DNA of 64,000 bases from Caulobacter soli (GTDB lineage: Bacteria; Pseudomonadota; Alphaproteobacteria; Caulobacterales; Caulobacteraceae): the NCBI RefSeq assembly GCF_011045195.1, contig NZ_CP049199.1, forward strand, positions 186,001 through 250,000, written 5' to 3'. The translations under genes and the position numbers were made by a program. Under the pieces are notes generated by a model. That model was not told the DNA's origin, ran no database searches, and saw nothing but the letters and a program-made list of their open reading frames with translations. Positions 3,470 to 29,702 of the stretch are shown in pieces (within the stretch, counting starts at the first letter, position 1; the number at the start of each line of letters is the position of its first letter).

Positions 3470-4773
3470 ATGCGCGTAGCGATGATTGGCACGGGCTATG
3501 TGGGCTTGGTGTCTGGTGCGTGTTTTGCGGACTTCGGGCACGTTGTGACGTGCATCGACAAGGACCCGAGCAAGATCGAGCGGCTGGAGAAGGGCGAGAT
3601 CCCGATCTTCGAGCCGGGGCTGGACGCGCTGGTGGCGCGCAACGTGCGCGAAGGCCGGCTGTTCTTCACCCTGGACGGGGCCCAGGCGATCAAGGACGCC
3701 GACGCGGTGTTCATCGCGGTGGGCACGCCCACGCGGCGCGGCGACGGCCATGCGGACCTGTCCTACGTCTATGCCGCGGCCGAGGAGATCGCCGGCCTGA
3801 TCGAGGACTTCACCGTCATCGTCACCAAGTCGACCGTGCCGGTGGGCACCGGCGACGAGGTCGAGGCGATCATCCAGCGGGTCCGGCCCGACGCCCAGTT
3901 CGCCGTGGTCTCCAATCCCGAGTTCCTACGCGAGGGCGCGGCCATCGAGGATTTCAAGCGTCCCGACCGCGTGGTGGTGGGCACCGAGGACGAGCGGGCC
4001 CAGGCGGTGATGCGCGAGCTCTACCGTCCGCTGAGCCTGAACGAGACGCCCATCGTCTTCACCGGCCGGCGCACCAGCGAGCTGATCAAGTACGCGGCCA
4101 ACGCCTTCCTGGCCATGAAGATCACCTTCATCAACGAGATGGCCGACCTGTGCGAGAAGGTCGGGGCCGACGTCCAGCAGGTGGCGCGCGGCATCGGCCT
4201 GGACAAGCGCATCGGGTCCAAGTTCCTCAACGCCGGTCCCGGCTATGGCGGCAGCTGCTTTCCCAAGGACACCATCGCCCTGGTGCGCACCGCCCAGCAG
4301 TACGGCGCGCCGGTCAAGCTGATCGAGACCACCGTCAGCGTCAACGACGCGCGCAAGAAGGCCATGGCCGACAAGGTCGCCGCGGTCCTGGGGGCCGAGG
4401 ACCTGACGGGCAAGACCGTCGGGGTCCTGGGCGTGACCTTCAAGCCCAACACCGACGACATGCGCGACGCCCCCAGCCTGGACATCCTGCCCGCCCTGCT
4501 GGCCCGGGGCGCCAAGGTCCAGGCCTTCGATCCCGAAGGCGCCAGGGAGGCCGCCCACATGATGCCGGGCGTCACCTTCGTCGGCGGCCCCTACGAGGCC
4601 GCCCAGGACGCCGACGTCCTGGTGATCATCACCGAGTGGGACCAGTTCCGCGCCCTGGACCTGGAACGCCTCAAGACCCTGCTCAAGGCCCCCGTCGTCG
4701 TCGACCTGCGCAATGTCTACAAACCCGCCGAAATGGTCCGCGCCGGCTTCACATACGCCTCCATCGGACGGGG
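3470..4773 (+). repeat. Inverted repeat copy A: whole UDP-glucose dehydrogenase coding sequence
   Basis: This block matches the reverse complement of 28399-29702. Comparison of translations in several frames, and of the 5' and 3' ends at base level, shows a single substitution (T at 4714, corresponding to C on the minus strand at 28458). Identity begins at the ATG, since the upstream sequences differ completely, and ends inside the last glycine codon. The arms are about 1304 bp with about 23.6 kb between them. Confidence 0.9.
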
Positions 4774-4777
4774 GTGA
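3470..4777 (+). CDS. UDP-glucose 6-dehydrogenase, copy 1
   Basis: A 435-residue enzyme that oxidises UDP-glucose to UDP-glucuronate with two NAD+. The N-terminal Rossmann motif is GTGYVGLVSG (residues 7-16). The catalytic cysteine is C263 in GPGYGGSCFPKD. The C-terminal UDP-binding domain contains GVLGVTFKPNTDDMRDAPS. An upstream extension to 3368 is possible, but the ATG at 3470 is chosen because homology begins there and because the second copy (28392-29702) starts at exactly this codon. The two coding sequences appear identical except for one silent T/C at 4714, and copy 1 ends one codon earlier. The first glycosyltransferase of the cluster follows after 4 bp. Confidence 0.95.
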   Translation: MRVAMIGTGYVGLVSGACFADFGHVVTCIDKDPSKIERLEKGEIPIFEPGLDALVARNVREGRLFFTLDGAQAIKDADAVFIAVGTPTRRGDGHADLSYVYAAAEEIAGLIEDFTVIVTKSTVPVGTGDEVEAIIQRVRPDAQFAVVSNPEFLREGAAIEDFKRPDRVVVGTEDERAQAVMRELYRPLSLNETPIVFTGRRTSELIKYAANAFLAMKITFINEMADLCEKVGADVQQVARGIGLDKRIGSKFLNAGPGYGGSCFPKDTIALVRTAQQYGAPVKLIETTVSVNDARKKAMADKVAAVLGAEDLTGKTVGVLGVTFKPNTDDMRDAPSLDILPALLARGAKVQAFDPEGAREAAHMMPGVTFVGGPYEAAQDADVLVIITEWDQFRALDLERLKTLLKAPVVVDLRNVYKPAEMVRAGFTYASIGRG

Positions 4778-4781
4778 CGCC

Positions 4782-6119
4782 GTGACGCTGTCCGCCCCGT
4801 TGTCTTCCATCGCCCAGGACGTCGAGGCTACGGCCCGCGCCGCGAAGGGGGCTGATCCTGGACGGCCGTTCCGCGTGCTCATCGTGGCGCTGAACTACGC
4901 GCCGGAACTTGTGGGCTGCGCCAAGTACACCACCGAGCTCGCCGAGGAGCTCGTCGCCCGAGGGCACGTGGTCGAGGTGGTCGCGGCGCCGCCCTACTAT
5001 CCTCAATGGAAGATCGCCGAGCCCTATTCCGGCGCGCGGTGGAGTCGCGAGGTCCGATCCGGCGTGACCATCAACCGGACGCCCCTTTACGTGCCCTCCG
5101 CCCCCAGTGGCGTGAAGCGCATCCTGCACCTGGCCTCGTTCGGCGCGGCGGCCCTGCCGACGGCCGTTCGGGCGGCCAAGCGGTTTCGTCCGGACCTGGT
5201 GTTCGCGGTCGCGCCGACCCTGGCCGCGGCCGGCGCGGCCTTGGCCGCCGGCAAGGCGGCCGGCGCGAAAACCTGGCTGCATGTTCAGGACTTCGAGGTG
5301 GACGCCGCCTTCGGATTGGGCTTGCTGAACAACGGCGCGGCCCGACGCCTGGCGTTGGGAATGGAAAACTGGCTGCTGCGACGGTTCGATCGGGTGTCCA
5401 GCATTGCGCCGGCCATGGTGAACCTGTTGCGGACCAAGGGTGTCGCGGCCGATCAGGCGCTCGAGCTTCGAAACTGGGTGGATCTGGACGCCTTCCCCAC
5501 CTGGGTCAGCTCGGACACGGCCTATCGCGCGCAGCTCGGCATCGCGGCCGATCAGATCGTGGCGCTGTATTCCGGTAACATGGCCGGCAAGCAGGGCATC
5601 GAAGCCTTGGCGGATGTCGCCAAGAGCTTGAAGGCCGTTAAGGCGCCCGTGACCCTGTTGCTGTGCGGGGAAGGACCGGCGCGCGCGACGCTGGAGTCAG
5701 CCTGCCAGGGGCTGGCCAATGTGAAATTTCTTCCCCTGCAGCCGTTGGAACGGCTGCCGGAACTGTTGGCGACCGCCGATATCCATCTGTTGCCTCAGCG
5801 CGCCGAGGCCGCCGATCTGGTTCTGCCCTCGAAGCTGACCGGCATGCTGGCCTCTGGCCGGCCGGTCGTCGCGATGGCGACACAAGGCACGGGCCTGGCC
5901 GAGGAGGTCGCGGGATGTGGTCTGGTCGTCGAGCCGAACGCGGCGGCCATGACCGAGGGCGTCTTGACGCTGGCGGCGGACGCGGACCTGTGCCGCGCGC
6001 TCGGCACGGCCGGCAAGGCCCGGGCCAAGAGCCGCTGGCGCAAGCGCGCGATCATCGACGGCTTCGTGAATGAGGTCGCCAGCGTCCTGAAGCTCGGCGA
6101 TATTTCGGTGGCGTCATGA
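4782..6119 (+). CDS. Family 4 glycosyltransferase, WcaI-like
   Basis: A 445-residue transferase with GT-B fold. The N-terminal acceptor domain starts near FRVLIVALNYAPELVGCAKY, a stretch typical of the colanic-acid WcaI group. The C-terminal donor domain has VALYSGNMAGKQGIE and a late LPSKLTGMLASGRPVVA segment with the conserved nucleotide-sugar contacts. A GTG at 4782 is taken as the start because it lies just after the dehydrogenase stop. An ATG at 4713 would overlap that gene by 65 bp. The stop overlaps the next gene (ATGA), which implies translational coupling. It probably adds one sugar to the lipid-linked repeat unit on the cytoplasmic side. Donor and acceptor are unknown. Confidence 0.9.
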   Translation: MTLSAPLSSIAQDVEATARAAKGADPGRPFRVLIVALNYAPELVGCAKYTTELAEELVARGHVVEVVAAPPYYPQWKIAEPYSGARWSREVRSGVTINRTPLYVPSAPSGVKRILHLASFGAAALPTAVRAAKRFRPDLVFAVAPTLAAAGAALAAGKAAGAKTWLHVQDFEVDAAFGLGLLNNGAARRLALGMENWLLRRFDRVSSIAPAMVNLLRTKGVAADQALELRNWVDLDAFPTWVSSDTAYRAQLGIAADQIVALYSGNMAGKQGIEALADVAKSLKAVKAPVTLLLCGEGPARATLESACQGLANVKFLPLQPLERLPELLATADIHLLPQRAEAADLVLPSKLTGMLASGRPVVAMATQGTGLAEEVAGCGLVVEPNAAAMTEGVLTLAADADLCRALGTAGKARAKSRWRKRAIIDGFVNEVASVLKLGDISVAS

Positions 6120-6682
6120 CCCAGCCCGTCGTTCAAGATCTCGCCAGTTTCCGCAATCCGCCCGGCTTTCGTGGTCGGTCGGGCGTGGTGGTGCAGCTTT
6201 GGTGGCTGGTGCAAAGCTCGCTGTTCCGCTGTTCGCCACAGTTCATGTACGGCTGGCGCAATGGGCTGCTTCGGCTGTTTGGGGCCCGCATCGGCAAGGG
6301 CGTCATCATCCGCCCGACGGTGCGCGTCACCTATCCGTGGAAGCTGACGATCGGCGACCACAGCTGGATCGGCGATTTCGTCGAGCTATACACCCTGGGC
6401 GAAATTCGGATCGGCCAGAACGCCGTGGTCTCGCAGAACAGCTATCTGTGCACCGGCTCTCATGATTTTCGCGCGCCGGCCTTCGACATCTACGCCAAGC
6501 CGATCGTCGTCGAAGACGAAGCCTGGGTCGCGGCCGGAGTGTTCGTTCACCCCGGCGTGACGGTGGCCAGGGGCTCGGTGGTCGCCGCGCGATCGGTGCT
6601 GTCCCGCGACACCGAGGCCCTGACGATCTGGGCCGGCTCGCCCGCCAAGAAGGTCGCCGAACGGCTGAACCGTTCGGCTTAG
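6116..6682 (+). CDS. WcaF-like colanic-acid-type O-acetyltransferase
   Basis: A 188-residue left-handed beta-helix (hexapeptide repeat) acetyltransferase. Repeats such as IGKGVIIRPTVRV, IGDHSWIGDFVEL and IGQNAVVSQNSYL run from about residue 55 to 150. The motif CTGSHDF carries the probable catalytic histidine. Enzymes of this group use acetyl-CoA to acetylate a sugar of an exopolysaccharide repeat unit in the cytoplasm. It overlaps the preceding glycosyltransferase by 4 bp and converges with the next gene with a 4 bp overlap of coding ends. Confidence 0.9.
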   Translation: MTQPVVQDLASFRNPPGFRGRSGVVVQLWWLVQSSLFRCSPQFMYGWRNGLLRLFGARIGKGVIIRPTVRVTYPWKLTIGDHSWIGDFVELYTLGEIRIGQNAVVSQNSYLCTGSHDFRAPAFDIYAKPIVVEDEAWVAAGVFVHPGVTVARGSVVAARSVLSRDTEALTIWAGSPAKKVAERLNRSA

Positions 6683-7752
6683 TCGCCCACCGCGATCACC
6701 GGTTCCGGCTTCCTGCGGCGAATCAGCGAATTCAAGCGGCGACGGATCGGATCCTCGACGAGATAGTAGCTGACCAGCCCCGCTCCGATCGCGACCGCGA
6801 GCATGAGGGGATAGGCGAACTTGCCGCCCACCTGCGCGCCGTGCAGCGCGGCGAGCATGTAGAAGGGTTGTTGCCACAGGTAAATCGAAAACGAGACCAG
6901 CCCGAAGAACGTCAGGGCGCGCATCGACAGGATGTCGAGGGCGAACTTGGGGGCCCAATGCAGTGTCGCCAAGCTGCCGGCGACCAGCATCGTGCCCAGC
7001 GAGTATTTGATCGGATCCGGAACCGGGTTCACCTGCAAGGCCACGCCCGCGAGACCCAAGGCGATGGGCAGCCAGGCTGGCGTCCGGACGCCACGCTCGT
7101 CCAGGCCGTGAACCAGAAGATAAGCCGCGGCTCCCGCCAAGATTGAAGCCCCGCGCACGTCGCTGCGCCAGTAGACCTGGAAATAATCGTGGCCCTGCGC
7201 TGAAAGAACTGCGCCGAGGCCCATCATCGCGACCATGATCGCGCAGAGCAGCGACAGAATCTGCGTGGCCGATAGCGACAGGCGGCGCGAGGCGAACGCC
7301 AGCAGACCGAGCAGGATGTAGAGGTGCTCTTCGACGCAAAGCGACCAGACGTGTTCGATCCAGGGCAGCCGGAAGCCCGCCGCCGAGATATAATTGCTGG
7401 TGAAGGTGAGCGCTCCGACCCAGTTGAGCACCACCAGTTTCGAATCCGAGGCGACCATCACGATCGCGGTGGTGATCGTGGCGAAGACCGCCAGACCTGG
7501 CCACACTCTTGAAAATCTTCTCGCGTAGAACTCCGCCAGGGCGGCCTTGTGGATGAACAATATGTGAGCCATCAAGCGACCGCTCAGCACGAAAAACAGT
7601 TCAACGCCAAATCGCCCGACGTTGATGGCGGAGAGATGTATGAAGTGGCCGGCCAAAACCGATAGGATCGCCATGCCGCGCCATCCATCGAGATAGAGAA
7701 CGCGGGTTTGATGAGCAGCAATCGTGTGACCGTTCACGTACTTAGCAGCCAA
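6679..7752 (-). CDS. Integral-membrane acyltransferase (acyltransferase 3 / OafA family)
   Basis: A 357-residue polytopic membrane protein. The family signature is present at the N-terminus (YLDGWRGMAILSVLAGHF, with the conserved histidine, then GVELFFVLSG), followed by FYARRFSRVWP. About ten hydrophobic segments follow and the tail is basic. The family transfers acyl groups, usually acetyl, to extracytoplasmic glycans. It lies opposite in orientation to its neighbours: convergent with the WcaF-like gene and divergent from the second acyltransferase across an AT-rich 113 bp promoter region. Confidence 0.9.
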   Translation of the reverse strand: MAAKYVNGHTIAAHQTRVLYLDGWRGMAILSVLAGHFIHLSAINVGRFGVELFFVLSGRLMAHILFIHKAALAEFYARRFSRVWPGLAVFATITTAIVMVASDSKLVVLNWVGALTFTSNYISAAGFRLPWIEHVWSLCVEEHLYILLGLLAFASRRLSLSATQILSLLCAIMVAMMGLGAVLSAQGHDYFQVYWRSDVRGASILAGAAAYLLVHGLDERGVRTPAWLPIALGLAGVALQVNPVPDPIKYSLGTMLVAGSLATLHWAPKFALDILSMRALTFFGLVSFSIYLWQQPFYMLAALHGAQVGGKFAYPLMLAVAIGAGLVSYYLVEDPIRRRLNSLIRRRKPEPVIAVGD

Positions 7753-7865
7753 GATTCACCCAATGGCCCCTGTGCGGGGAAGTTTCTACTGATTAGATTT
7801 TTCTCTAACAAAAATATTACGCAATCTGGGTATCCTAAAAAGGTACGTCAAGCGAGAGCAAATTG

Positions 7866-8987
7866 ATGACCACAGATAGAAGAAAGCAGATTGTGGGCCT
7901 GCAACATCTGCGTGGGCTGGCGGCTCTCGCTGTTGTTGTGGATCACGGCGCCGGAATGGCGGCATTTCCGAAGTATTTTGGTCAATCTATTCTTAGTGGT
8001 CACCTTGAAAAAGGCACGATAGGTGTTGATCTTTTCTTCGTGATCAGTGGATTGATTATTGCCACGGTCGCGCTGGAGATCACGACGCTGCGGGCGAAGA
8101 TCTCAATCACGGACTTCGCGCTTCGACGGCTTATTCGTATCGTGCCGTTGATGTGGATCGCGATCCTGTCCTACGCCGCGCTAAGGCTCGCCGGGCGCGG
8201 TCTTTCAGACTTTTCGCCCTATGTGAACGCTCTGTTCTTGTTGCCGACTGGGCCAGTGGTTCCGCAAAACATCTGGACACTGCGACATGAGCTGGTGTTC
8301 TACTCGGCCTTCGCGTTGACGTTTCTGCTGTTTCCACGTGCGCGCTGGTTGATCCTGATTTGGATCTTCAGCTTTATACCCGTCGCTTTGTTCGCCCATT
8401 TCCATCCCGCCGACAACCCGGCCCTCTACGCGGCCAAGATCTTCGGAAATCCGGTCAACATCGAATTCGGCGCTGGGTTGGCGTTGGGGCTTCTTTGTCG
8501 CCGCCGAGATATCAGGAGCGATCTTTCGACGCCGGCGCCGGCGCTTCTGCTGATCGCGGCCTTTGTGGGCTTCTTTCTGCTGGCGATCGTCCTGGACCTC
8601 AAGATCGATCAAATTCAGGGCACGATGATATCGGCGATCGTCGCTTCGGCGATCATCTTCCTGGCCGTGAAGCTGAAGTTCGCCGATTCCGGCCTGAACA
8701 GGGTCGGTTCGCTGCTCGGCGACGCCTCATATTCCATCTATCTGTTTCACCCGCACTTCCAGTCGGCGATGCTGGGGGTCTGGAAACATTTCCTGCCTCA
8801 GACCAACATCTGGATCGTGATCCTGGGGGTGGTCTTGCTGTCCACGGCCGCTGGCGTGCTGATCCACCTGTTCGTCGAGAAGCCGCTGCTGACTTGGCTG
8901 GGGCGATTTCTGCCAAGGCGTGGCGACCATCACGGCAAGGTCGCGGCCGACCCGGTGCTGGCGCCGACCCTGCAGCCTCCTGGCTGA
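7866..8987 (+). CDS. Second integral-membrane acyltransferase (acyltransferase 3 family)
   Basis: A polytopic protein of about 373 residues with the family hallmarks QHLRGLAALAVVVDHGAGM, GVDLFFVISGLII and FALRRLIRIVPLMW. A C-terminal LFHPHF and VEKPLL end is typical of exopolysaccharide acyltransferases (ExoZ-like). The ATG at 7866 is preferred over an adjacent TTG. The first half is clearly AT-richer than neighbouring genes, which hints at separate ancestry. The likely role is O-acylation of the cluster's glycan at the inner membrane. The paralogue upstream is divergent and only distantly similar. Confidence 0.9.
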   Translation: MTTDRRKQIVGLQHLRGLAALAVVVDHGAGMAAFPKYFGQSILSGHLEKGTIGVDLFFVISGLIIATVALEITTLRAKISITDFALRRLIRIVPLMWIAILSYAALRLAGRGLSDFSPYVNALFLLPTGPVVPQNIWTLRHELVFYSAFALTFLLFPRARWLILIWIFSFIPVALFAHFHPADNPALYAAKIFGNPVNIEFGAGLALGLLCRRRDIRSDLSTPAPALLLIAAFVGFFLLAIVLDLKIDQIQGTMISAIVASAIIFLAVKLKFADSGLNRVGSLLGDASYSIYLFHPHFQSAMLGVWKHFLPQTNIWIVILGVVLLSTAAGVLIHLFVEKPLLTWLGRFLPRRGDHHGKVAADPVLAPTLQPPG

Positions 8988-9051
8988 TGTCGGGCGAGCG
9001 TTTCGTCGCCGACAATTCATATAGATACAGTGCGCCCGATCTTCAGGAGAA

Positions 9052-9969
9052 TTGGCTATTCGTGCTTCCGTTGTAATACCGACCTTCAGGCGACTTGATC
9101 GGTTGCGGGAGGCGGTGGCGAGCGTCGCTTCGCAGGCTCGGCCTCCTGAAGAACTGATCGTCGTGGCGGCCGATCCCGATGAGCGGGAGGCGGTGCGCGC
9201 GCTGCTGGACGGCATCGACTTCGCGGGACGCGCGGAGGTCGTCGCCAGCGATCGTTGCCTGTTGGGCGGCGGGGCGCGGAACCTGGGATGGCGGTCGGCG
9301 ACTGGTGACGTCGTGCTGTTCCTGGATGATGACGACTATTGGGCGGCCGATAAGGTCGGAGACCATGTCGCCGCGCACGACAGCGGTCAGTCGGATGTCG
9401 TCTATTCGGGTGTCTGGTACGTGTTTCCGGGCGCGCGGGATGCGCGGCCCTACAATGCCACGCCCGTCGCCGCGGACATGGTCCGCGGGCTGACCCTCGA
9501 TGGCCTGTGCCCACCGACCACCAGCTGCGTCTCGATTCGACGCGCGGCGCTCGAGGCCGTGGGCGGCTTCGATGAAACGCTGCCATCGTACCAGGACTGG
9601 GAGCTGTGGTACCGGCTGGCGCTGGCCGGGTCCAAGTTCGCCAGCCTGCCGCAGCCCTTGACCTATTTCGTGCAGCACGAAGGCGGGCGCGTTTCGATGA
9701 ACATCGAGGGGCGGTCCAGGGCCGCGGGCCTGGTGCTGGCCAAGCATGGCTCGTCGCCGGACCTCGTCGCCTTCTTCGGGAAAGAGCGTCGGCAGATGTT
9801 GGAGCGAGTCATCGTCTTCTCCGCTCAGCGCGGCGAATGGACCTGCCTGGACACCTTCCGGCGCGCGCTGTCCGACAAGATCTTCTCGCCGCTGGAATGG
9901 CGGCCCTATTGGATCGCCGCCAAGGTGGCGGGCAATCTGGCTCTGGCTTCGGTGCGTCGTAACCCATGA
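9052..9969 (+). CDS. Family 2 glycosyltransferase
   Basis: A 305-residue GT-A transferase. It begins with ASVVIPTFRRLDRLREAV and has the metal/nucleotide-binding acidic cluster in VVLFLDDDDYW (about residue 93) and a later ED-type region SYQDWELWYRL. The start is a TTG at 9052. It is chosen because an AGGAG box lies 5 bases upstream and the family's first beta strand begins within five codons, with no ATG or GTG nearby. The stop overlaps the flippase start (ATGA). It is presumably one of the transferases building the repeat unit. Confidence 0.88.
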   Translation: MAIRASVVIPTFRRLDRLREAVASVASQARPPEELIVVAADPDEREAVRALLDGIDFAGRAEVVASDRCLLGGGARNLGWRSATGDVVLFLDDDDYWAADKVGDHVAAHDSGQSDVVYSGVWYVFPGARDARPYNATPVAADMVRGLTLDGLCPPTTSCVSIRRAALEAVGGFDETLPSYQDWELWYRLALAGSKFASLPQPLTYFVQHEGGRVSMNIEGRSRAAGLVLAKHGSSPDLVAFFGKERRQMLERVIVFSAQRGEWTCLDTFRRALSDKIFSPLEWRPYWIAAKVAGNLALASVRRNP

Positions 9970-11468
9970 CAAGCGTGGAATCCTCGGCGCCGAGCCCCCC
10001 GCCCGTCGCCGAACCGAGCCTTCAGGGCCGCAGTGTCAAGGGCACAGCGGTCACCATGGTGTTCCAGGGCTGCAAGATGCTCGTGCAGATCGGATCGGTC
10101 GTCGCCCTGGCGCGGCTGGTCTCGCCACACGAGTTCGGCATCTACGCCATGGCGTTGCCGATCTACGTCTTTTCGCTGCTGTTCCAGGACTCCGGCACGA
10201 CCCAGGCGATCATTCAGCGCGAGCTGACCAAGACCGACCTGAACAACATCTTCTGGTTCAACCTGGCGGTCTGCGGGGCGATCGTCCTGCTCCTCGCCCT
10301 GGCCGCGCCCTTTATCGCCCTCTTCTACAAGACGCCGGTCGTCGCCCAGCTGGTGTGGGGGTTCTGCGGCGTCACCATGCTCAACTGCCTTTCGGCTCAG
10401 CCGCTGGCCCTACTGACGCGCAGGCTGCACTTCGGCTTCCTGGCGGGGATCGATCTGGCGTCCTATGTGCTGGGCGCCGCCGCCTCGCTGGCGGTGGCCC
10501 TGATCCATCCGGGCTACTGGGCGCTGTTCGCCATGCCCCTGGTGACAGCTTTGACCAATGTCGTCGGCGCCTGGATCAAGGCGTCGTGGAGTCCCGGCCT
10601 GCCGACGCGCGACCCCAAGTTCCTCAATCTGGCGCGGTTCGGATCCGGCGTCTTCGCCTTCAACCTGCTCAACTACTTCACCCGCAACGCCGACCTGGTC
10701 CTGCTGGGCCGCTACGCGTCGGCGGCCGCCCTGGGCGCCTATGACCGGGCCAACCGCCTGATCCTGTTCCCGATCCAGCAGATCAACATCCCGCTGGGAC
10801 GCATCTTCCTGCCGGTGCTGAGCCGCCTGGCGGACAAGCCGGAAGAGTATCGCGCGTTCTATCTGAACGGCGTCGCGGCGATCCTGTTCGCCACCCAGCC
10901 GGGGATGGTCTGGCTGATCTGCGACGGCCGCGAGATCATTCCGATCCTGCTCGGCGCCGAATGGCGTGGCGCGGCGGACATCTTCGTCTGGATCGGCGCG
11001 GCGGCCCTGTGGCAACCCCTGACCTACACGGCAGGCTGGATCTTGGTCAGCCAGGGTCGTACGGGCGCCTTTTGGAGGTGGGGTCTCTTCAACGCCATCG
11101 TGTCGATCGGCGGTTTCGCCGCGGCCGTGCCGTGGGGGGCGATGGGCTTCGCGGTGGTCTACGCTATTCGTGAGAACGTGATCCGCTTGCCGGTCCTGAT
11201 CTGGCTGATGGGGCGCCGGGGGCCGGTGACCATTCTCCACTTCCTTAAAGGTTTCGCGCCGTATCCCGCCGGCTGTGTCGCAGCGGCCGCGATCATTCTG
11301 GTCCGGCGCAGCCTGATGGGATCGAGTTTGATCTCGTTGGGCGTGGATTTGGTGTTGGCCTACCTAGCCTACGGGGTCGCCATCATGCTGTTCCCGGATG
11401 GGCGGAAGTTCTGGAATTCGGCGCTTCACGCCGGCCAGGGACTGATGAGGAAATCCATCAAGGCCTAG
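9966..11468 (+). CDS. Wzx-like lipopolysaccharide/oligosaccharide flippase
   Basis: A 500-residue polytopic protein of the polysaccharide-transport (MOP) superfamily. It starts SLQGRSVKGTAVTMVFQGCK, with LVSPHEFGIYAMALPIYVF typical of WzxC/TuaB-like flippases, and has about 12-14 hydrophobic segments. It would move undecaprenyl-linked repeat units across the inner membrane for periplasmic polymerisation. It is translationally coupled to the glycosyltransferase before it. It ends the plus-strand run, and the polymerase-like gene converges on it 134 bp further on. Confidence 0.9.
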   Translation: MTSVESSAPSPPPVAEPSLQGRSVKGTAVTMVFQGCKMLVQIGSVVALARLVSPHEFGIYAMALPIYVFSLLFQDSGTTQAIIQRELTKTDLNNIFWFNLAVCGAIVLLLALAAPFIALFYKTPVVAQLVWGFCGVTMLNCLSAQPLALLTRRLHFGFLAGIDLASYVLGAAASLAVALIHPGYWALFAMPLVTALTNVVGAWIKASWSPGLPTRDPKFLNLARFGSGVFAFNLLNYFTRNADLVLLGRYASAAALGAYDRANRLILFPIQQINIPLGRIFLPVLSRLADKPEEYRAFYLNGVAAILFATQPGMVWLICDGREIIPILLGAEWRGAADIFVWIGAAALWQPLTYTAGWILVSQGRTGAFWRWGLFNAIVSIGGFAAAVPWGAMGFAVVYAIRENVIRLPVLIWLMGRRGPVTILHFLKGFAPYPAGCVAAAAIILVRRSLMGSSLISLGVDLVLAYLAYGVAIMLFPDGRKFWNSALHAGQGLMRKSIKA

Positions 11469-11602
11469 TTGCGATCAGCGTCGCGCCTCTTCCTTCGGGA
11501 CATCTCGTCCATGAAACTTGCTTGATGGCGGGTCAGTACGCGCCGTTGGGTAGATCTTAGGGGCGGGGCCTGGCTTCACACCCTGAGCAGAGTCTCGGGG
11601 CG

Positions 11603-20336: not shown

Positions 20337-20402
20337 CTAGCGCGGCTCCCGTTGCCCATCGGCCCCGGATGGGGCCACGCCTTAAAGCCTTGGTGGATCG
20401 GA

Positions 20403-20493: not shown

Positions 20494-20570
20494 AGGCTCG
20501 CCTCCAAGGTTTCAAGGCGCGGCCTCGCCGCTGGCGGATGACGTCAGGGGTGTTTGCGGAAAGGGTGCTT

Positions 20571-20754: not shown

Positions 20755-21282
20755 GGGCGTCTATCCTCGGCGCATAGTGATTGAAGTTAAACGATTTCAA
20801 CGCCCTGAACTTTCTCGACCCAATCTTGTCCCCACCCTTCCAAACCCGCCGTATCCTGATCTCACCTCGACGCAGGGAAAGGGCGCATGGCCAGCGACCG
20901 ATGCGGCGGCGGGGGGCGATCGAGCGGGAAGCTCTGTCGGCGGTTCTGTCCGCGTGAGTAAGGCGGGACCAAACCTTGCGTCTCTGGTGCCGGTCGGGCC
21001 TGGAACACAGATACGACGTGACGTGAGGGCTGAATTGGCGGCAGGCGAGCGATGACAGGCTCGCGGTCCGGGACTGGGGTTCGTTGATCCAGCCCGCCCG
21101 TCGGAGGCTTCAAGGCGGCGAGGCTCTAATAGAGCTCAGCGTCGCGGGCTTCCGGATAACGACCGCGCGGAGCGAACGGGCTTCGTCGAAACGGTTAGTT
21201 CTTCAATCTCCTCCGGACGTCGTCCGGCGCTCCGCGACCCTTTCCATCAACTCACAGCCAGATTGGCGTGGGATCACACTCC
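20755..21282. other. Gap between repeat elements, no clear gene
   Basis: A plus-strand frame of 92 codons (20777-21055) exists, but its codon use is not biased like real genes here and no family is recognised. Short GC-rich inverted segments are present. A structured RNA cannot be excluded. I looked for SRP RNA, RNase P, tmRNA and cobalamin riboswitch cores and found none. Confidence 0.35.
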
Positions 21283-21394
21283 CTTGCCCCCACCTGACGG
21301 CTTCGCCGTCTGTCCGCCCCCATAGGGGGCGGAGGACATCCCTCTTCCCCCCCTTTGGGGGAAGACGACCGCGAAGCGGTCCGTAGGGGGCAAG
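21283..21394. repeat. Palindromic REP-like element near the pgm 3' end
   Basis: The stretch begins cttgcccccac and ends gtagggggcaag. Inside are nested hairpins: gacggcttcgccgtc, cgcccccatagggggcg and cttcccccctttgggggaag. The two halves are imperfect reverse complements. It lies 10 bp downstream of the pgm stop and may also act as a transcription terminator for pgm. Confidence 0.75.
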
Positions 21395-21404
21395 TGTTCG
21401 CCGC

Positions 21405-23042
21405 CTACCCCTTCAACGCCGTCGCCACGACCTCGCGCGCCTCGGCTTGCACGGACTTCAGGTGATCGGGACCCAGGAACGACTCCGCATAGATCTTGTA
21501 GACGTCCTCGGTGCCCGACGGCCGGGCGGCGAACCAGGCGTTCTGGGTGGTCACCTTCAGCCCGCCGATCGCCTCGCCGTTGCCGGGGGCGTTGGTGAGG
21601 ATGTCGGTGATCGGCTCGCCGGCCAGGGTCTTGGCCGACACGTCGCTCGGGCTCAGCGCGCCCAGCCGCGCCTTCTCCGCCCGGTTGGCCGGGGCGTCGA
21701 TGCGGGCGTAGGACGGCGCGCCGTACTGGTCGGTCAGGCCGGCATAGAGCTGGCTGGCGCTCTGGCCGGTCTTGCCCTGGATCTCGGCGGCCAGCAGGGC
21801 CAACAGCAGGCCGTCCTTGTCGGTGGTCCACACCGTGCCGTCGCGGCGCAGGAACGAAGCCCCGGCCGACTCCTCGCCGCCGAAACCTACCGATCCGTCC
21901 AGCAGGCCCGGCACGAAGTGCTTGAAGCCGACCGGCACTTCCAGCAGGCGGCGGCCGAGGCCCGCGACCACGCGGTCGATCATCGAGGACGACACCAGGG
22001 TCTTGCCCACGGCGACGTTCGCGCCCCAGGCCGGCCGGTTGGCGAACAGATAGGCGATGGCGGCGGCCAGGTAGTGGTTGGGGTTCATCAGCCCGCCGTC
22101 GGGGGTGACGATCCCGTGCCGGTCGGCGTCGGCGTCGTTGCCGGTGGCGACGTCGTAGCCGGCCCCGCCCTTCATGGCGTTGATCAGGTTGGCCATGGCC
22201 GCCGAGGACGAGCAGTCCATGCGAATCTTGCCGTCGTTATCCAGCGGCATGAAGGCCCAGCGCGGGTCGACGGCGTCGTTGACGACGGTCAGGTCCAGGC
22301 GGTGGCGCGTGGCGATCTCGCCCCAATAGGCGACGCTGGCCCCGCCCAGTGGGTCGGCCCCGATCTTCACCCCGGCGGCGCGGATGACGTCCAGGTCCAG
22401 GATGCTGGGCAGGTCGTCGACATAGTGGGCCAGGAAGTCGTAGCGCTGGGCGCCGGCCAGGGCGCGCTCGAACGGGATGCGCCTGACGTCCTTCAACCCG
22501 CCTTCGAGCAGCTGGTTGGCGCGGGCGGCGATCACCGAAGTGGCCTCGCCGCCGGCCGGGCCGCCCGACGGGGGATTGTACTTGATGCCGCCGTCGCGCG
22601 GCGGGTTGTGCGAAGGGGTCAGCAGGATGCCGTCGGCCTGGCCCGGATGGGCGCGGTTGTAGGCCAGGATGGCGTGCGAGACCGCTGGGGTCGGGGTAAA
22701 GCCGTCGCGCGAGTCGATCAGGGTCTCGACGCCGTTGGCGACCAGCACTTCCAGGGTCGAGCGCCAGGCGGGCTCCGACAGGCCGTGGGTGTCGCGGCCG
22801 ACGAAGACCGGGCCGTTGATCCCCTGGGCCGCGCGATAGTCCACGATGGCCTGGACGACCGCCAGGATGTGATCCTCGTTGAACGCCGCGTCCAGGCTGG
22901 AGCCCCGGTGCCCGGAGGTGCCGAAGGCGACGCGGTGCGCGACGTTCGAAAGGTCGGGGTGAACGTCGAAATAGGCGCGGGTCAGGGCGTCCAGGTCGAC
23001 GAGGTCTTCGGGTCGGGCCTGACGGCCGGCGTGTTCGTGCAT
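21405..23042 (-). CDS. pgm: Phosphoglucomutase, alpha-D-glucose phosphate-specific
   Basis: A 545-residue enzyme interconverting glucose-1-phosphate and glucose-6-phosphate, which supplies UDP-glucose for the glycan clusters. The phosphoserine is S144 in [12 protein letters not shown]. The metal loop is [10 protein letters not shown], the sugar loop [10 protein letters not shown] and the phosphate-binding loop ARPSGTED. The ATG at 23042 (MHEHAGRQ) is preferred because an AAGGGTG box precedes it. A 12-codon extension upstream is less likely. Its length matches the family. Confidence 0.95.
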
Positions 23043-23093
23043 GCGTTCACCCTTATCGATCGCTGGTTCGCCGTTCAATGTTCGTGGACTTGC

Positions 23094-23966
23094 CTAGAAC
23101 GCTTCGGCGACGATCGTTCCATCCGGCAGCAGGGCGGCGCGCTTCAGGCCGCTGGACGCGAAGGGCATGGCGACATTGCCGTCGCGGTCGACGGCGACCA
23201 GGCCGCCGTGGCCGCCCAGTTCGGCCACGCCCTGGATGGCGGCCTGGGCGGCGGTCTCCAGGCTTTCGCCGCCGAACCGCACCCGGTGGGCGATCTGCGA
23301 GGCGACGGCGGTGCGGATGAAATATTCGCCCTGGCCGGTGCACGACACCGCCGCATGGCCATCGGCCCAGGCGCCGGCTCCGATGATGGGCGAATCGCCC
23401 ACCCGGCCGGGCAGCTTGCCGAATACGCCGGCCGTCGAGGTCGCCGCCGCCAGCCGCCCTTCGCCGTCGCGGACCACGCAGCCGACCGTGCCCGTGGGGA
23501 GGGCGGCGGTATTGTCCTCGAAGGCGCCGGCCTGGGTGAACCAGGTCGCCGGATCGTCGATGGCCTTCAGGCCCTGGGCGCGGGCGAAGGCCATGGCGCC
23601 TTCGCCGGCCAGCATCACGTGCGGGGTCTTTTCCATCACCGCCCGGGCGGCCAGGATCGGGCTCTCGAAACCCTGCAGCGCGGCCACCGATCCAGCCCGC
23701 AGGGTGGCGCCGTCCATCAGGCTGGCGTCCAGCTCGTATTCGCCGTCGGCGTTGGGCGAGGCGCCCTTGCCGGCGATGTAGAGGCCGCTGGCTTCCAGGG
23801 CGACGACGGTCTCGACGGCGACGTCCAGGGCCCCGGCGCCCGCCGCCAGTCGATCGCGGGCCGCCTCGACCAGGCCGCGCATGTGGGCGATCTCGACGGC
23901 GTAGTCATGGCCGCGCTTGGCCCCGGCGCCGCCGTGTAGGGCGAGAGTAAAACGTTTGTTTGACAT
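23094..23966 (-). CDS. iaaA: Isoaspartyl peptidase / L-asparaginase (Ntn-hydrolase)
   Basis: A 290-residue plant-type asparaginase precursor. It has HGGAGAKRG at the N-terminus and the autocleavage site GTVGCVV, where T160 becomes the N-terminal nucleophile of the beta subunit. The later [14 protein letters not shown] and TGQGEYFIR segments form the substrate pocket. The family hydrolyses isoaspartyl dipeptides and L-asparagine. It lies 51 bp upstream of pgm on the same strand, so the two may share a transcript, and it is divergent from the oxidoreductase. Confidence 0.92.
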
Positions 23967-24035
23967 TATGCTTCCTTGGCCGGGCGGCCTGCGCTAGCGT
24001 CCGGCCTCTTAACGACAAAAGACGGGAGAGGCGAG

Positions 24036-25034
24036 ATGAAGGCGGTGCTCAGCAAGACGGTCGGCGGACCCGAGACCCTGGTGCTGGAAGACCTGCCCGA
24101 TCCCGTTGCCGGTCCGGGCCAGGTGGTGCTCGCGGTCAGGGCCTGCGGCGTCAACTATCCCGACGTGCTGATCATCGAGGACAAGTATCAGTTCAAGCCC
24201 GAGCGGCCCTTCGCCCCCGGTGGCGAGGTGTCGGGCGTGATCACGGCGGTAGGCGAGGGCGTCACGACCTTCAGCGTCGGCCAGCGAGTGTTGGCCTCGA
24301 CCGGCTGGGGCGGCATGGCCCAGCAGGTGGCGCTGGACGCCGCGCGCTGCACGCCGATCCCCGACAACATGCCTTTCGACGAGGCCGCCGCCTTCATCCT
24401 CACCTATGGCACTTCCTATTACGCCCTCAAGGATCGCGGCCATCTGAAGGCCGGCGAGACCCTGCTGGTGCTGGGCGCGGCCGGCGGCGTGGGCCTGGCG
24501 GCGGTCGAGCTGGGCAAGGCGGCCGGGGCGCGGGTGATCGCCGCCTGCTCCAGCCAGGAGAAGGTGGATCTCGCCATCAAGCACGGCGCCGACGCCGGCG
24601 TGGTCTATCCGCGCGGTCCGTTCGACAAGGACGGCCAGAAAGCTTTGGCGAGCCTGATCAAAGACGCCTGCGGCCCCAATGGCTGGGACGTGGCCTATGA
24701 CGCGGTCGGCGGCGACTATTCCGAAGCCACCATCCGCGCCGCTGGCTGGAACGGTCGCTTCCTGGTGATCGGTTTCCCGTCGGGCATTCCGAAGATCCCG
24801 CTGAACCTGACCCTGCTGAAGTCCTGCGACATCGTCGGGGTGTTCTGGGGCGCGGCGGTGGCTCGCGATCCCAAGGGCCACGCCCAGAACGTGCGCGAGC
24901 TGATGGATCTCTACGCGGCGGGCAAGATCAAACCCTACGTCTCCGAGCGCTTCCCGCTGGCCAAGGCCGGCGACGCCATCGCCCACCTGGCCAGCCGCAA
25001 GGCCATGGGCAAGGTGGTGGTGGTCAACGACTAA
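24036..25034 (+). CDS. NADPH:quinone oxidoreductase family protein (zinc-independent MDR)
   Basis: A 332-residue medium-chain dehydrogenase/reductase starting MKAVLSKTVGGPETL after a GGGAGAGG ribosome site. An earlier in-frame ATG at 23976 lies outside the homologous part. The catalytic domain has RACGVNYPDVLIIEDKYQ and GGEVSGVI. The coenzyme domain has the motif VLGAAGGVGLAAVELG. The cysteines that bind zinc in alcohol dehydrogenases are absent, as in quinone oxidoreductases. The physiological substrate is unknown. Confidence 0.9.
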   Translation: MKAVLSKTVGGPETLVLEDLPDPVAGPGQVVLAVRACGVNYPDVLIIEDKYQFKPERPFAPGGEVSGVITAVGEGVTTFSVGQRVLASTGWGGMAQQVALDAARCTPIPDNMPFDEAAAFILTYGTSYYALKDRGHLKAGETLLVLGAAGGVGLAAVELGKAAGARVIAACSSQEKVDLAIKHGADAGVVYPRGPFDKDGQKALASLIKDACGPNGWDVAYDAVGGDYSEATIRAAGWNGRFLVIGFPSGIPKIPLNLTLLKSCDIVGVFWGAAVARDPKGHAQNVRELMDLYAAGKIKPYVSERFPLAKAGDAIAHLASRKAMGKVVVVND

Positions 25035-25299
25035 AGCCTGGCGGCCGGAGGCGTGAGCGGTTCGGCGCCCGCCACGCTGTTAAAGACTCGAGGCCGCGAC
25101 ATTGCGACACATACGGATCAACGTTATCCGAGACGGAAGTTTTCGATATGGTTGGTCCGTGTGTGTCGTCAGGCGTTTAAATGGTGAATCATTCTTCAAT
25201 AAGGACATTCAAGGTTAAGTCTCGCTAAGCATTCTTATTGGGGAACAGCTAAGCCTATCCCCGTAAACCTGTGCTCCAAGTTGTCGGAGTCGGGCCAAG

Positions 25300-26220
25300 A
25301 TGTTTCTTCCAGCGAGAGACGCCTTCTCTCCAGAGGTGCGTCAAAACTTCCGTATGAGCCGCCGCCCCGAAGAGCGGGTGCAGGTTCTTGGCGGATCCAT
25401 GGACTTGGTGCGTCCCGAGGAAGTCTTCCATTTCGTGGCGGGCAAGATCGCCGCGCGTGAAAGCGCCATCGTCGCCAACCACAATCTCCACAGCCTTTAC
25501 CTGATCCGCAAGGACGAGAAGATCGCCGAGTTCTTCCGCAAGTCCGACCTGATCGAGGTGGATTCCGTGCCGCTGATCTTCTGGGCCCGCATTGTCGGTC
25601 GGGCCAGCCGCCGGTTCCATCGCTGCACCTATCTGGACTGGCGCGACGCCTTCTGGGAACGCGCGATCCAGGAGAACTGGAAGGTCTTCTTCGTCGGCGG
25701 CGCCCCGGGCGTCGGCGAGGCGGCGACGGCCCGCATCCAGGCCGATTGGCCGGGCGCGCAGATCCGCACTCATCACGGCTATTTCGATGTGGCCTCCGGT
25801 TCGGACGAGAACCAGGCGGTGATCGACGCGATCAACGCCTACAAGCCCGACATCGTGCTGGTGGGCATGGGCATGCCGCGCCAGGAGGTCTGGGTCCTGG
25901 AGAACCAGCCCAAGCTCGGACCTTGCGTGACCTTCACGGTCGGCGGCGCGTTCGACTACGAGGCTGGCGTCCAGATCCCCTCGCCCCGCTGGATGGGGCA
26001 GGTGGGCATGGAATGGCTGTTTCGCCTGATGGTTGATCCGCAGCGCCTGTTCACCCGCTACTGCGTGGAGCCGTGGTCTCTGGTGGGGCCGGCCATACGC
26101 GATTTGGGGAAAGCGCTTGCGAGGCAGGCCGCTTCCGGCAAAGCTTCCGAGGCCAGCCGCGCGGAGTACGTGCGGGCGGCTGAATTGGCGCGCTCTGACG
26201 TTCTGGGGGGACGACGATGA
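25300..26220 (+). CDS. hfsJ: WecG/TagA/CpsF family glycosyltransferase, probably holdfast HfsJ
   Basis: A 306-residue GT26 enzyme. It has ANHNLHSLYLIRK, the strand VFFVGGAPGVGE, and the family core DIVLVGMGMPRQEVWVLEN followed by VGGAFDYEAG and PRWMGQVGMEWLFRL. The C-terminal tail (about 265-306) is basic and helical, typical of membrane-associated GT26 proteins. In Caulobacter crescentus the GT26 enzyme HfsJ acts in holdfast polysaccharide synthesis and is the target of the inhibitor HfiA, to my knowledge. The proximity here to an MHYT-GGDEF-EAL gene and gdhZ resembles that region, so the orthology is an inference. A 265 bp upstream gap should carry its promoter. The stop overlaps the next gene (ATGA). 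Confidence 0.8.
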   Translation: MFLPARDAFSPEVRQNFRMSRRPEERVQVLGGSMDLVRPEEVFHFVAGKIAARESAIVANHNLHSLYLIRKDEKIAEFFRKSDLIEVDSVPLIFWARIVGRASRRFHRCTYLDWRDAFWERAIQENWKVFFVGGAPGVGEAATARIQADWPGAQIRTHHGYFDVASGSDENQAVIDAINAYKPDIVLVGMGMPRQEVWVLENQPKLGPCVTFTVGGAFDYEAGVQIPSPRWMGQVGMEWLFRLMVDPQRLFTRYCVEPWSLVGPAIRDLGKALARQAASGKASEASRAEYVRAAELARSDVLGGRR

Positions 26221-26414
26221 GCTTGAATATCTCCATGCCGCCGCCGACCGGAAAGGTCGAGCGGCCCGGCATCGCGCAACGTGTCGCGGCGATCTTCGGC
26301 CTGGCCGGCCTGGTTCTGGCCTGGGCCGTCGTTCTGCTGCCCTGCGCGGTCTGGCTGCTGTTCAGCCTGGTGGCCAACCGGCTGCAGCCGGGACCGGCTC
26401 GCCAACAAGCCTGA
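26217..26414 (+). CDS. Small single-pass membrane protein coupled to the GT26 gene
   Basis: A 65-residue protein with a proline-rich cytosolic N-terminus (about 1-22), one strong transmembrane segment (about 24-53, VAAIFGLAGLVLAWAVVLLP and onward) and a short basic tail. The start codon overlaps the stop of the HfsJ-like gene, so translation is probably coupled. A membrane anchor or partner for the transferase is the simplest hypothesis. No family is recognised. Confidence 0.75.
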   Translation: MSLNISMPPPTGKVERPGIAQRVAAIFGLAGLVLAWAVVLLPCAVWLLFSLVANRLQPGPARQQA

Positions 26415-26521
26415 ACGCTGTTCACTTAGTCCTAGCCAGGCGCGGCTCGCCGCGCCAGGATGGTCGCGCCTGACGCAGCGGCCCGTTTCCAGAGGCCGCG
26501 CGCGGCCAAAGGGAGCGGCGC

Positions 26522-27415
26522 ATGACGGGACGTCTGGACGGCAAGGTTGCGGTGATCACCGGCGGATGCTCGGGCATCGGGCTGGGCACGGTGGAGCTGT
26601 TCGTGGCCCAGGGCGCCCGGGTCGTGGCCGCGGACGTCCAGGCCGAGAAGGGCGCGATGCTGGAAAAGCGTTTCCCCGACGCCGTCCGCTTCGCTCCCTG
26701 CGACGTCACGCATGAAAGCCAGATCGCCGCGGCCATGGAACTGGCCCAGGAGGCGTTTGGAGGTCTCGACATCCTGTTCAACAACGCCGGCCATGGCGGG
26801 GCGCCCAATGGCGTGGCCGACATGACCGCCGAGGGCTGGGACGCCACCTTCGCCCTGCTGCTGCGCGGGCCGGTGCTGGGCATGAAGCACGCCCTGCCGC
26901 TGATGCTGGCGCGCGGCGGCGGCAGCGTGATCAACACCGCCTCGATCGCGGGCCTGCAGGCGGGCTTCGGTCCGCTGGCCTATTCGACGGCCAAGGCGGC
27001 GGTGATCCAGCTGACCAAATGCGCGGCGGCCGAGCTGTCACCGCAGAAGATCCGGGTCAACGCCATCTGTCCCGGCCTGATCGCCACCTCCATCTTCGGG
27101 GCCTCGATGGGCCTGCCGCGCGAGGTCGCCGACCAGATGGCCGCCCGGGTCGCCGAGGTGGGACCCAAGATCCAGCCGATCCCCAAGGCCGGCCTGCCCG
27201 ACGACATCGCCCGCGCCGCGCTCTACCTGGCCAGCGACGATTCCGAATTCGTGACCGGCACGCACATCGTGGTCGACGGCGGCATCACCATCGGCGGCCG
27301 CAGCAGCTGGGACCACAAGGCGCCCTCGCCGCTGCTGGCCGCCATGGGCATCACCCCCGAACAGGCCGAGCAGATGCGGGCGGCGATGGTCGCCTCGCAA
27401 ACTCAGCCTGGATAG
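26522..27415 (+). CDS. SDR family oxidoreductase
   Basis: A 297-residue classical short-chain dehydrogenase. It has the cofactor motif TGGCSGIG (residues 13-20), NNAG (87-90), catalytic S141, and Y154/K158 in YSTAK. A C-terminal extension of about 35 residues (HKAPSPLLAAMGITPEQAEQ) exceeds the classical 250 residues. The aspartate after beta strand 2 (AADVQ) suggests NAD preference. The substrate is unknown. Its 3' end overlaps that of the convergent epimerase gene by 13 bp. Confidence 0.9.
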   Translation: MTGRLDGKVAVITGGCSGIGLGTVELFVAQGARVVAADVQAEKGAMLEKRFPDAVRFAPCDVTHESQIAAAMELAQEAFGGLDILFNNAGHGGAPNGVADMTAEGWDATFALLLRGPVLGMKHALPLMLARGGGSVINTASIAGLQAGFGPLAYSTAKAAVIQLTKCAAAELSPQKIRVNAICPGLIATSIFGASMGLPREVADQMAARVAEVGPKIQPIPKAGLPDDIARAALYLASDDSEFVTGTHIVVDGGITIGGRSSWDHKAPSPLLAAMGITPEQAEQMRAAMVASQTQPG

Positions 27416-28395
27416 AAGCTCCGGTACCAGTCGACGAAGCGGCCCAGCCCTTCCTTGAGCTTCACCTTTGGCCGGTAACCGATCAGGGCGTTCAGCTTGG
27501 AGATGTCGGCATAGGTGGCGGTGACGTCGCCGGGCTGCATCGGACGCATGATCTTGACCGCCTCGCGGCCGAGCGCGGCCTCCAGCGTGGTGATCATGTC
27601 CATCAGGCCGACGGGGTCGTTGTCGCCGATGTTGTAGATCTCGTGTCCGCCCGAGGGCGGAGGATTGTCGAGCACGCCGATCACGCCATCGACGATGTCG
27701 TCGATATAGGTGAAATCGCGGGCCATCCGGCCTTCGCCGTAAACTTCGATCGGCTCGCCGGCGAGGATCTTCTGGGTAAAGCCGTAATAGGCCATGTCCG
27801 GACGGCCCCACGGTCCGTAGACGGTGAAGAAGCGCAGGCCCGACATCGGAAAGGCATAGAGCTTGGCGTAGCTGATGCTCATCAGCTCGTCGGCGCGCTT
27901 GGTGGCGGCATATAGCGACACCGGCGCGTCGACGGCGTCGGTCTCGGTGAAGCCCGCGCTGTCGCCGCCGGCCAGGGATTGAGGCCGATCGCCATAGACC
28001 GAGCTGGACGAAGCGTAGACCAGATGGGTCACGCCGTTGTGGCGCGCCGCCTCCAGCACCGACAGGTGGCCGGCGAGGTTGGAGCGCTGGTAGGCGAAGG
28101 GGTTTTCGATCGAGTAGCGCACGCCGGCCTGGGCGGCCAGGTGGACGATGCGCTTGGCGCCGCTGTCGCGGACCAGGGCGAGAAAGGCCGCAGCGTCGGC
28201 GATGTCCAGGCGCACCATGGAAAATCCCGGCCGCCCGTCGAGGCGGGCGGCGCGGGCGGCCTTCAGGGCCGGGTCGTAATAGTCGTTGAACACGTCGACG
28301 CCGATCACCGTCTCGCCTCGGTCGAGCAGGCGCTCGGCCACGTGCAGGCCGACGAAGCCGGCGGCGCCGGTGACGATGACCGGCCCGGCGCTCAT
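27403..28395 (-). CDS. UDP-glucuronate 4-epimerase-like NAD-dependent epimerase
   Basis: A 330-residue extended SDR. It has TGAAGFVGLHVAE at the N-terminus, the active-site segment ASSSSVYGDRPQ and the YxxxK in YAATKRADELM. The stretches DYYDPALK and FFTVYGPWGRPDMAYYGFTQ are typical of UDP-glucuronate/galacturonate epimerases (LspL, Cap1J type). The start overlaps the stop of UDP-glucose dehydrogenase copy 2 (ATGA), so UDP-glucuronate made by that enzyme is the probable substrate, giving UDP-galacturonate. Confidence 0.92.
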   Translation of the reverse strand: MSAGPVIVTGAAGFVGLHVAERLLDRGETVIGVDVFNDYYDPALKAARAARLDGRPGFSMVRLDIADAAAFLALVRDSGAKRIVHLAAQAGVRYSIENPFAYQRSNLAGHLSVLEAARHNGVTHLVYASSSSVYGDRPQSLAGGDSAGFTETDAVDAPVSLYAATKRADELMSISYAKLYAFPMSGLRFFTVYGPWGRPDMAYYGFTQKILAGEPIEVYGEGRMARDFTYIDDIVDGVIGVLDNPPPSGGHEIYNIGDNDPVGLMDMITTLEAALGREAVKIMRPMQPGDVTATYADISKLNALIGYRPKVKLKEGLGRFVDWYRSFYPG

Positions 28396-29702
28396 GCGCC
28401 CCGTCCGATGGAGGCGTATGTGAAGCCGGCGCGGACCATTTCGGCGGGTTTGTAGACGTTGCGCAGGTCGACGACGACGGGGGCCTTGAGCAGGGTCTTG
28501 AGGCGTTCCAGGTCCAGGGCGCGGAACTGGTCCCACTCGGTGATGATCACCAGGACGTCGGCGTCCTGGGCGGCCTCGTAGGGGCCGCCGACGAAGGTGA
28601 CGCCCGGCATCATGTGGGCGGCCTCCCTGGCGCCTTCGGGATCGAAGGCCTGGACCTTGGCGCCCCGGGCCAGCAGGGCGGGCAGGATGTCCAGGCTGGG
28701 GGCGTCGCGCATGTCGTCGGTGTTGGGCTTGAAGGTCACGCCCAGGACCCCGACGGTCTTGCCCGTCAGGTCCTCGGCCCCCAGGACCGCGGCGACCTTG
28801 TCGGCCATGGCCTTCTTGCGCGCGTCGTTGACGCTGACGGTGGTCTCGATCAGCTTGACCGGCGCGCCGTACTGCTGGGCGGTGCGCACCAGGGCGATGG
28901 TGTCCTTGGGAAAGCAGCTGCCGCCATAGCCGGGACCGGCGTTGAGGAACTTGGACCCGATGCGCTTGTCCAGGCCGATGCCGCGCGCCACCTGCTGGAC
29001 GTCGGCCCCGACCTTCTCGCACAGGTCGGCCATCTCGTTGATGAAGGTGATCTTCATGGCCAGGAAGGCGTTGGCCGCGTACTTGATCAGCTCGCTGGTG
29101 CGCCGGCCGGTGAAGACGATGGGCGTCTCGTTCAGGCTCAGCGGACGGTAGAGCTCGCGCATCACCGCCTGGGCCCGCTCGTCCTCGGTGCCCACCACCA
29201 CGCGGTCGGGACGCTTGAAATCCTCGATGGCCGCGCCCTCGCGTAGGAACTCGGGATTGGAGACCACGGCGAACTGGGCGTCGGGCCGGACCCGCTGGAT
29301 GATCGCCTCGACCTCGTCGCCGGTGCCCACCGGCACGGTCGACTTGGTGACGATGACGGTGAAGTCCTCGATCAGGCCGGCGATCTCCTCGGCCGCGGCA
29401 TAGACGTAGGACAGGTCCGCATGGCCGTCGCCGCGCCGCGTGGGCGTGCCCACCGCGATGAACACCGCGTCGGCGTCCTTGATCGCCTGGGCCCCGTCCA
29501 GGGTGAAGAACAGCCGGCCTTCGCGCACGTTGCGCGCCACCAGCGCGTCCAGCCCCGGCTCGAAGATCGGGATCTCGCCCTTCTCCAGCCGCTCGATCTT
29601 GCTCGGGTCCTTGTCGATGCACGTCACAACGTGCCCGAAGTCCGCAAAACACGCACCAGACACCAAGCCCACATAGCCCGTGCCAATCATCGCTACGCGC
29701 AT
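28392..29702 (-). CDS. UDP-glucose 6-dehydrogenase, copy 2
   Basis: A 436-residue enzyme identical in sequence to copy 1 (3470-4777) apart from one extra C-terminal alanine. All catalytic features are shared (GTGYVG motif, C263 in GGSCFPKD). The start is the ATG at 29702, preceded by AAGGAGCGCGC. It is translationally coupled to the epimerase gene downstream. That pairing is metabolically logical and suggests this is the ancestral location, while copy 1 may have been placed in the first glycan cluster later. Confidence 0.95.
   Translation of the reverse strand: MRVAMIGTGYVGLVSGACFADFGHVVTCIDKDPSKIERLEKGEIPIFEPGLDALVARNVREGRLFFTLDGAQAIKDADAVFIAVGTPTRRGDGHADLSYVYAAAEEIAGLIEDFTVIVTKSTVPVGTGDEVEAIIQRVRPDAQFAVVSNPEFLREGAAIEDFKRPDRVVVGTEDERAQAVMRELYRPLSLNETPIVFTGRRTSELIKYAANAFLAMKITFINEMADLCEKVGADVQQVARGIGLDKRIGSKFLNAGPGYGGSCFPKDTIALVRTAQQYGAPVKLIETTVSVNDARKKAMADKVAAVLGAEDLTGKTVGVLGVTFKPNTDDMRDAPSLDILPALLARGAKVQAFDPEGAREAAHMMPGVTFVGGPYEAAQDADVLVIITEWDQFRALDLERLKTLLKAPVVVDLRNVYKPAEMVRAGFTYASIGRGA
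28399..29702 (-). repeat. Inverted repeat copy B: whole UDP-glucose dehydrogenase coding sequence
   Basis: This is the partner of 3470-4773. The upstream flank (ACCTTTTAAGGAGCGCGC before the ATG) has no similarity to the flank of copy 1 (GTTCCGACAGGGGACTTT). The downstream flanks diverge after GGACGGGG. The identity is thus confined to the coding sequence. Confidence 0.9.

Follow-up and report, generated by a model that had tools for sequence, protein, structure and literature searches.

Results

The window analyzed here is a 64,000-nucleotide stretch of the Caulobacter soli genome (contig NZ_CP049199.1, positions 186,001 to 250,000, forward strand) that contains two nearly identical copies of ugd, a gene predicted to encode UDP-glucose 6-dehydrogenase. 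Copy A (3470..4777, plus strand) encodes 435 amino acids and copy B, the home copy (28392..29702, minus strand), encodes 436; this genome is referred to as G000 and its copies as G000A and G000B. A Pfam scan of copy A placed PF03721, PF00984, and PF03720 above their cutoffs, giving the three-domain UDPG_MGDP_dh architecture, and this family membership together with the epimerase gene whose start overlaps the copy B stop codon points to the substrate and activity of both copies. The BLASTN alignment of the copies is gap-free, begins at the first base of each ATG, and has 1303 identities over 1304 positions. The sole internal difference lies at window position 4714, T in A and C in B, and is synonymous (AAT/AAC). 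The match stops at 4773 in A and 28399 in B, where the 3′-ends read GGG-TGA and GGC-GCA-TGA, respectively, copy B carrying one additional alanine; the proteins are 100% identical across 435 amino acids. A repeat search of the window for repeats at least 60 long (seed 16) returned this pair only, as inverted arms at 3470-4773 and 28399-29702. BLASTN found no match between the copies outside the gene, from 4 kb upstream (3.5 kb for A, where the window ends) to 7 kb downstream of the ATG. The preliminary description of this DNA, which reported a near-identical inverted pair with one difference (T at 4714), identity beginning at the ATG, and unrelated flanks, was correct on each of these points. 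The genome spans 5.68 Mb in two contigs, and its only further ugd match (E <= 0.001) is a 31%-identical paralog. Third positions of A and B are 99.54% alike, compared with at most 79.5% to any of the other 55 aligned genomes, and therefore both chance and protein-level selection fail to explain the identity.

We surveyed 75 Caulobacter genomes, 63 of which have a ugd match at E <= 1e-60. Two whole or nearly whole, close copies were found in 11 of the 75 (G000, G001, G002, G004, G005, G026, G030, G032, G065, G071, and G072), with the second copy in G001 (G001b) cut at codon 14 by a contig end. The main alignment comprised 69 copies from 56 genomes and left out fragments, the G035 and G086 copies, and a few others. 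Identity within a genome ranged from 93.72 to 99.85% and exceeded the best identity of either copy to any other genome in all 11 pairs. The same was true of every pair at third positions, which were 86.7 to 99.5% alike within genomes and at most 88.0% between them. On an earlier 49-row tree, 10 of the 11 pairs were sisters with support of 100/99 or more. Placing the second-locus copies of G026, G030, G032, and G072 in one group was rejected (p 9e-7). This comparison of likeness within and between genomes had been proposed in the preliminary description, and run across the genus it supports concerted evolution.

The age of the loci can be read from sequences next to ugd. In G004, G009, G095, and G098, leaders at the same locus are 87 to 99% alike between species, and the two leaders of one genome can be aligned over only 3 to 18 of 150 nt. 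Downstream DNA follows the same pattern, at 80 to 97% for the same locus and 64 to 75% over 22 to 79 nt within a genome. The last 105 coding nucleotides of ugd show 0, 0, 1, and 1 differences within these genomes and 3 to 9 in 24 between-genome comparisons. The first 110 coding nucleotides are less telling (0, 0, 0, and 1 within; 0 to 2 between genomes at the same locus), and at codon 15 both copies of a genome agree on TCG in G098, TCT in G095, and TCC in G009. Leaders and downstream DNA follow the locus and the ends of ugd follow the genome, and therefore the loci are older than the identity. In G026 and G029, both ugd copies adjoin a galE gene, and the two galE genes are 77.1 and 78.0% alike within the respective genomes; grouping them by genome was rejected in the approximately unbiased (AU) test (p-AU 1e-8 for G026 and 1e-55 for G029). 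The ugd genes next to them are 93.7% alike in G026 and 98.5% alike over the 267 nt available in G029. A single clade of the five second-locus galE genes was not the best tree, nor was it rejected (p 0.47). The galE test left out the distant or partial sequences G008a, G017, G005b, G061y, and G004b.

In all 10 pairs for which both starts are available, the start of the matching block falls at −11 to +1 relative to the ATG. The other end of the block lies no more than about 10 nt from that of ugd in six pairs (G000, G002, G004, G005, G030, and G072) and no more than about 40 nt from that of the next gene, for an epimerase, in four (G026, G032, G065, and G071), in which both copies have the epimerase. 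Because the edges recur in this way, we take the block edge to be the end of homology, as conversion between old paralogs with unrelated flanks would give. The longest run free of differences was longer than expected from shuffling (p < 0.05) in 9 of the 11 pairs, with none of 10,000 shuffles matching G001 or G072; the window pair, which has two differences only, gave p = 0.0075. The diverged 3′-end of G001b was compared with G002b and G000A as possible relatives and did not resemble them: nucleotides 1180-1305 are nearest G001a (83%), followed by G006 (77%).

RNA elements were also considered. Synonymous diversity per 20 codons is 0.37 at the 5′-end of the coding sequence, compared with 0.17 to 0.38 elsewhere, and so is not low enough to indicate an element there. 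Many ugd leaders, including that at 3425-3469 of the window, carry a G+C-rich inverted repeat of varying sequence just before the ribosome-binding site. Single leaders of the copy A type look hairpin-like, although the consensus of 16 leaders folds with an energy near zero, with two-sided changes in three of its five pairs, and we do not claim a conserved hairpin. At the gathering threshold, Rfam gave one match in the window, far from ugd: a ZMP/ZTP riboswitch (RF01750, 59.7 bits) at 59422-59502 on the minus strand, just upstream of the minus-strand open reading frame 57799-59445.

Copy A stands at one end of a polysaccharide island with approximate limits of 3084..18093, drawn by comparing flanking genes across relatives. 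Its leader (3407..3452, plus strand) resembles that of the single ugd in G067 (87.2% over 47 nt, E 2.5e-8), the sole BLASTN match at E <= 0.01, with weaker likeness by local score to the leaders of G002b, G088, G006, G065b, and G004a (0 of 300 shuffles each). Directly 3′ of copy A lies a gene with Pfam glycosyltransferase domains (4782..6119, plus strand), relatives of which (E <= 1e-60) occur in 6 of the 75 genomes, this one among them; the relative in G002 directly follows ugd, and a truncated relative comes after ugd in G001. The island also contains a hexapeptide-repeat acyltransferase (6116..6682, plus strand; Pfam Hexapep), with a 69% relative in the G002b locus, and a flippase-type polysaccharide export protein (9966..11468, plus strand; Pfam Polysacc_synt_3). 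No island was seen at the corresponding site in G033, G067, G020, and G035, where the flanking genes lie only 0.1 to 1.7 kb from the next conserved gene. The partner of copy B is an NAD-dependent sugar epimerase (27403..28395, minus strand; Pfam Epimerase), the single match in the genome at E <= 1e-40, and G004b shares the flanking genes on either side of copy B. Trees of ugd that group G000A with G004a were rejected (p 7e-6), as were those that group G000B with G004b (p 1e-56). In G075 and G088 (L212 and L214 compared with window 2193-19749), ugd lies directly after the counterpart of the window gene at 18094-19749 and points toward the S24 regulator; in the window, copy A adjoins the S24 gene and points the opposite way, as if island orientation varies between species.

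Several genomes hold ugd in unusual forms. G019 and G061 each have ugd in pieces, the 5′ part at one old locus and the 3′ part next to the epimerase at the home locus, together with a third, intact copy elsewhere (L111 9930-9109, L064 4524-4030, and L039 5391-4087 in G019; L080, L081, and L079 in G061). Both G035 copies (L061 5272-4065 and L112 10227-9009) are some 90 nt short and change frame near codons 190-220; this gap falls in the most conserved stretch and is possibly an assembly error. In G021, contig C7 (L206) begins 33 nt before the ugd end and ugd was otherwise not found, so that a gap in the assembly probably accounts for its absence. The draft assembly of G089, in 680 contigs, yielded just one whole ugd, which contains an in-frame TAG (L227, G089:C329:1647-2951).

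Discussion

The ugd pairs are, in our judgment, very probably kept alike by recurrent gene conversion, as in the tuf genes, with tracts bounded by the end of homology. Two paralogous ugd genes would supply UDP-glucuronate to two surface-polysaccharide loci, B being the old home locus with ugd and its epimerase and A the copy that heads a separate island. Slow divergence of ugd would keep the paralogs similar enough for homologous recombination, by which one copy would repeatedly overwrite the other. Because a tract cannot pass the end of homology, it would halt at the gene ends, and leaders and partner genes would keep the history of their locus. We infer that this conversion depends on RecA and usually occurs without crossover; the roles of the individual copies and any advantage of keeping them alike are likewise inferred. 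Concerted evolution is well supported for the genus; for the window pair it is probable, short of proof. A likely course for that pair is that an island headed by ugd settled near the home locus and that one ugd then overwrote the other, although the resident gene may instead have been copied into a recently inserted island, or a crossover at ugd may have accompanied the insertion.

The principal alternative is that ugd alone was recently and independently duplicated into another polysaccharide locus in each lineage, so that the pairs are young and have never been homogenized. The window pair would fit, since the copy A island lacks a counterpart at the corresponding site in the four relatives compared and the copies are 99.85% alike. 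However, G004, G009, G095, and G098 have the same two loci, each with its own leader, the galE genes beside ugd in G026 and G029 are old, trimming to the ATG would be needed afresh in 10 pairs, and one recent event would not account for the mosaic pairs of G001 and G072. We consider recent duplication unlikely as a general account. The preliminary description had favored conversion over a recent trimmed duplication on the basis of the sharp boundary at the gene edges. That boundary is real and recurs in all 10 pairs for which it could be determined, but it does not by itself separate the two, and the preference for conversion is upheld by the genus-wide pattern; the window pair alone would allow recent copying into a new island. 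A second alternative is that ugd marks the crossover point of island exchange, such that the gene at the junction is the host's own and homogeneity is a by-product of integration rather than of later conversion. In its favor, ugd genes with similar leaders are followed by different genes: a glycosyltransferase gene in G000A and G002b, other genes in G004a and G067, and an epimerase gene in G065b, G030b, and G006. It leaves unexplained the species-private bases common to two old loci with orthologous downstream DNA, and we regard it as very unlikely. That a single ugd was copied in silico into two places is scarcely credible for the genus and unlikely for this genome's pair: contigs of G003, G009, G029, G095, and G098 do end inside ugd, where assemblers struggle, but breaks of this kind are expected from two genuine copies so nearly alike, this genome is in only two contigs, and G002, G004, G026, and G065, each listed as a single contig, have two copies that still differ from each other.

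Several observations weigh against recurrent conversion, either as a general rule or as an explanation of particular pairs. The second paralogs of G008 (74%) and G012 (72%) are unhomogenized and group together, and the G035 copies are 79% alike; second copies at about 72 to 79% are not seen converted, and homogenization is not universal. In G019 and G061, the ugd fragments are closest to G004 (94 to 96%) and share only 83 to 90% identity with the intact copy in the same genome. The G003 copies agree for 57 nt at their 5′-ends and diverge at their 3′-ends, in the last ~50 coding bases. G026 has the narrowest margin among the 11 pairs (93.72 versus 92.9, or 0.8 points), and its copies, which show a mosaic identity profile, are not sisters on the 49-row tree. 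Clustering of differences was not significant in G004 (0.55) or G032 (0.25); none of the clustering p values is corrected, and rate variation along the gene would also depress them. The groups subjected to the AU test were chosen from neighbors after the identities were known. For G009, G095, and G098, the comparison covers only the gene ends, their contigs stopping inside ugd. The placing of the copy A locus draws on the 47-nt leader match to G067 and one downstream gene shared with G002b, short of full synteny. Lastly, the G032 galE genes are 88.7% alike and group by genome; there conversion may reach galE, and so may not be peculiar to ugd.

The direction of conversion in the window was not borne out as first described. 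Copy B had been named the better candidate donor, and the one differing site is uninformative in this respect: of 49 aligned copies, 33 have AAC there and 16 have AAT. The sequence shared by A and B is nearest G033, and the epimerase linked to B is nearest G033 and G022 among the loci compared; this nearness may be a mild hint that the resident copy B was the source. We also put forward, as a tentative and rather doubtful extension, that in Caulobacter surface-polysaccharide loci the ugd coding sequence serves as a portable recombination joint. An incoming island would bring or meet a ugd, recombination inside that gene would both homogenize the copies and re-pair leaders with downstream operons, and the intervening 24 kb could be flipped where the pair is inverted, as with A and B. 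In the window, a crossover between the inverted arms would flip 4778..28391; no inversion of this segment was observed.

Short-read assemblies break at ugd and can appear to lack it (G003, G009, G029, G095, and G098), and ugd trees in the genus reflect genomes rather than loci. Where ugd is homogenized and the adjoining galE is not, as in G026 and G029, the two genes offer a natural test of how divergence limits conversion. We found nothing on ugd conversion in Caulobacter in the open-access literature, searched mostly at the level of title and abstract. A study of recurrent concerted evolution in prokaryotes describes 26 genes (PMC6053082); ugd is absent from those in its Tables 1-2, and Caulobacter is absent from its main text. 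The phenomenon as set out there, in which, for five or more species, paralogs of one species are closer to each other than syntenic orthologs of different species are, at synonymous sites as well, resembles what we see in ugd. Paralogs within a genome are closer than orthologs between species in all 11 close pairs, though not in G008 and G012; the same holds at third positions; and synteny indicates loci older than the identity in G004, G009, G095, G098, G026, and G029. With ugd, the short list of bacterial protein genes under recurrent concerted evolution would gain a sugar-nucleotide enzyme, in a setting in which the two copies serve exchangeable polysaccharide loci. The closest parallel is tufA and tufB of Salmonella (PMC5485169), two protein genes that are likewise near-identical, inversely oriented, and of comparable length (1185 nt). 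The tuf copies lie 762 kb apart and their conversion has been measured (PMC5485169), whereas the ugd copies lie 23.6 kb apart and are proposed to convert on the basis of sequence comparison; unlike tuf, ugd encodes a sugar-nucleotide enzyme, and one of its loci is often rebuilt.

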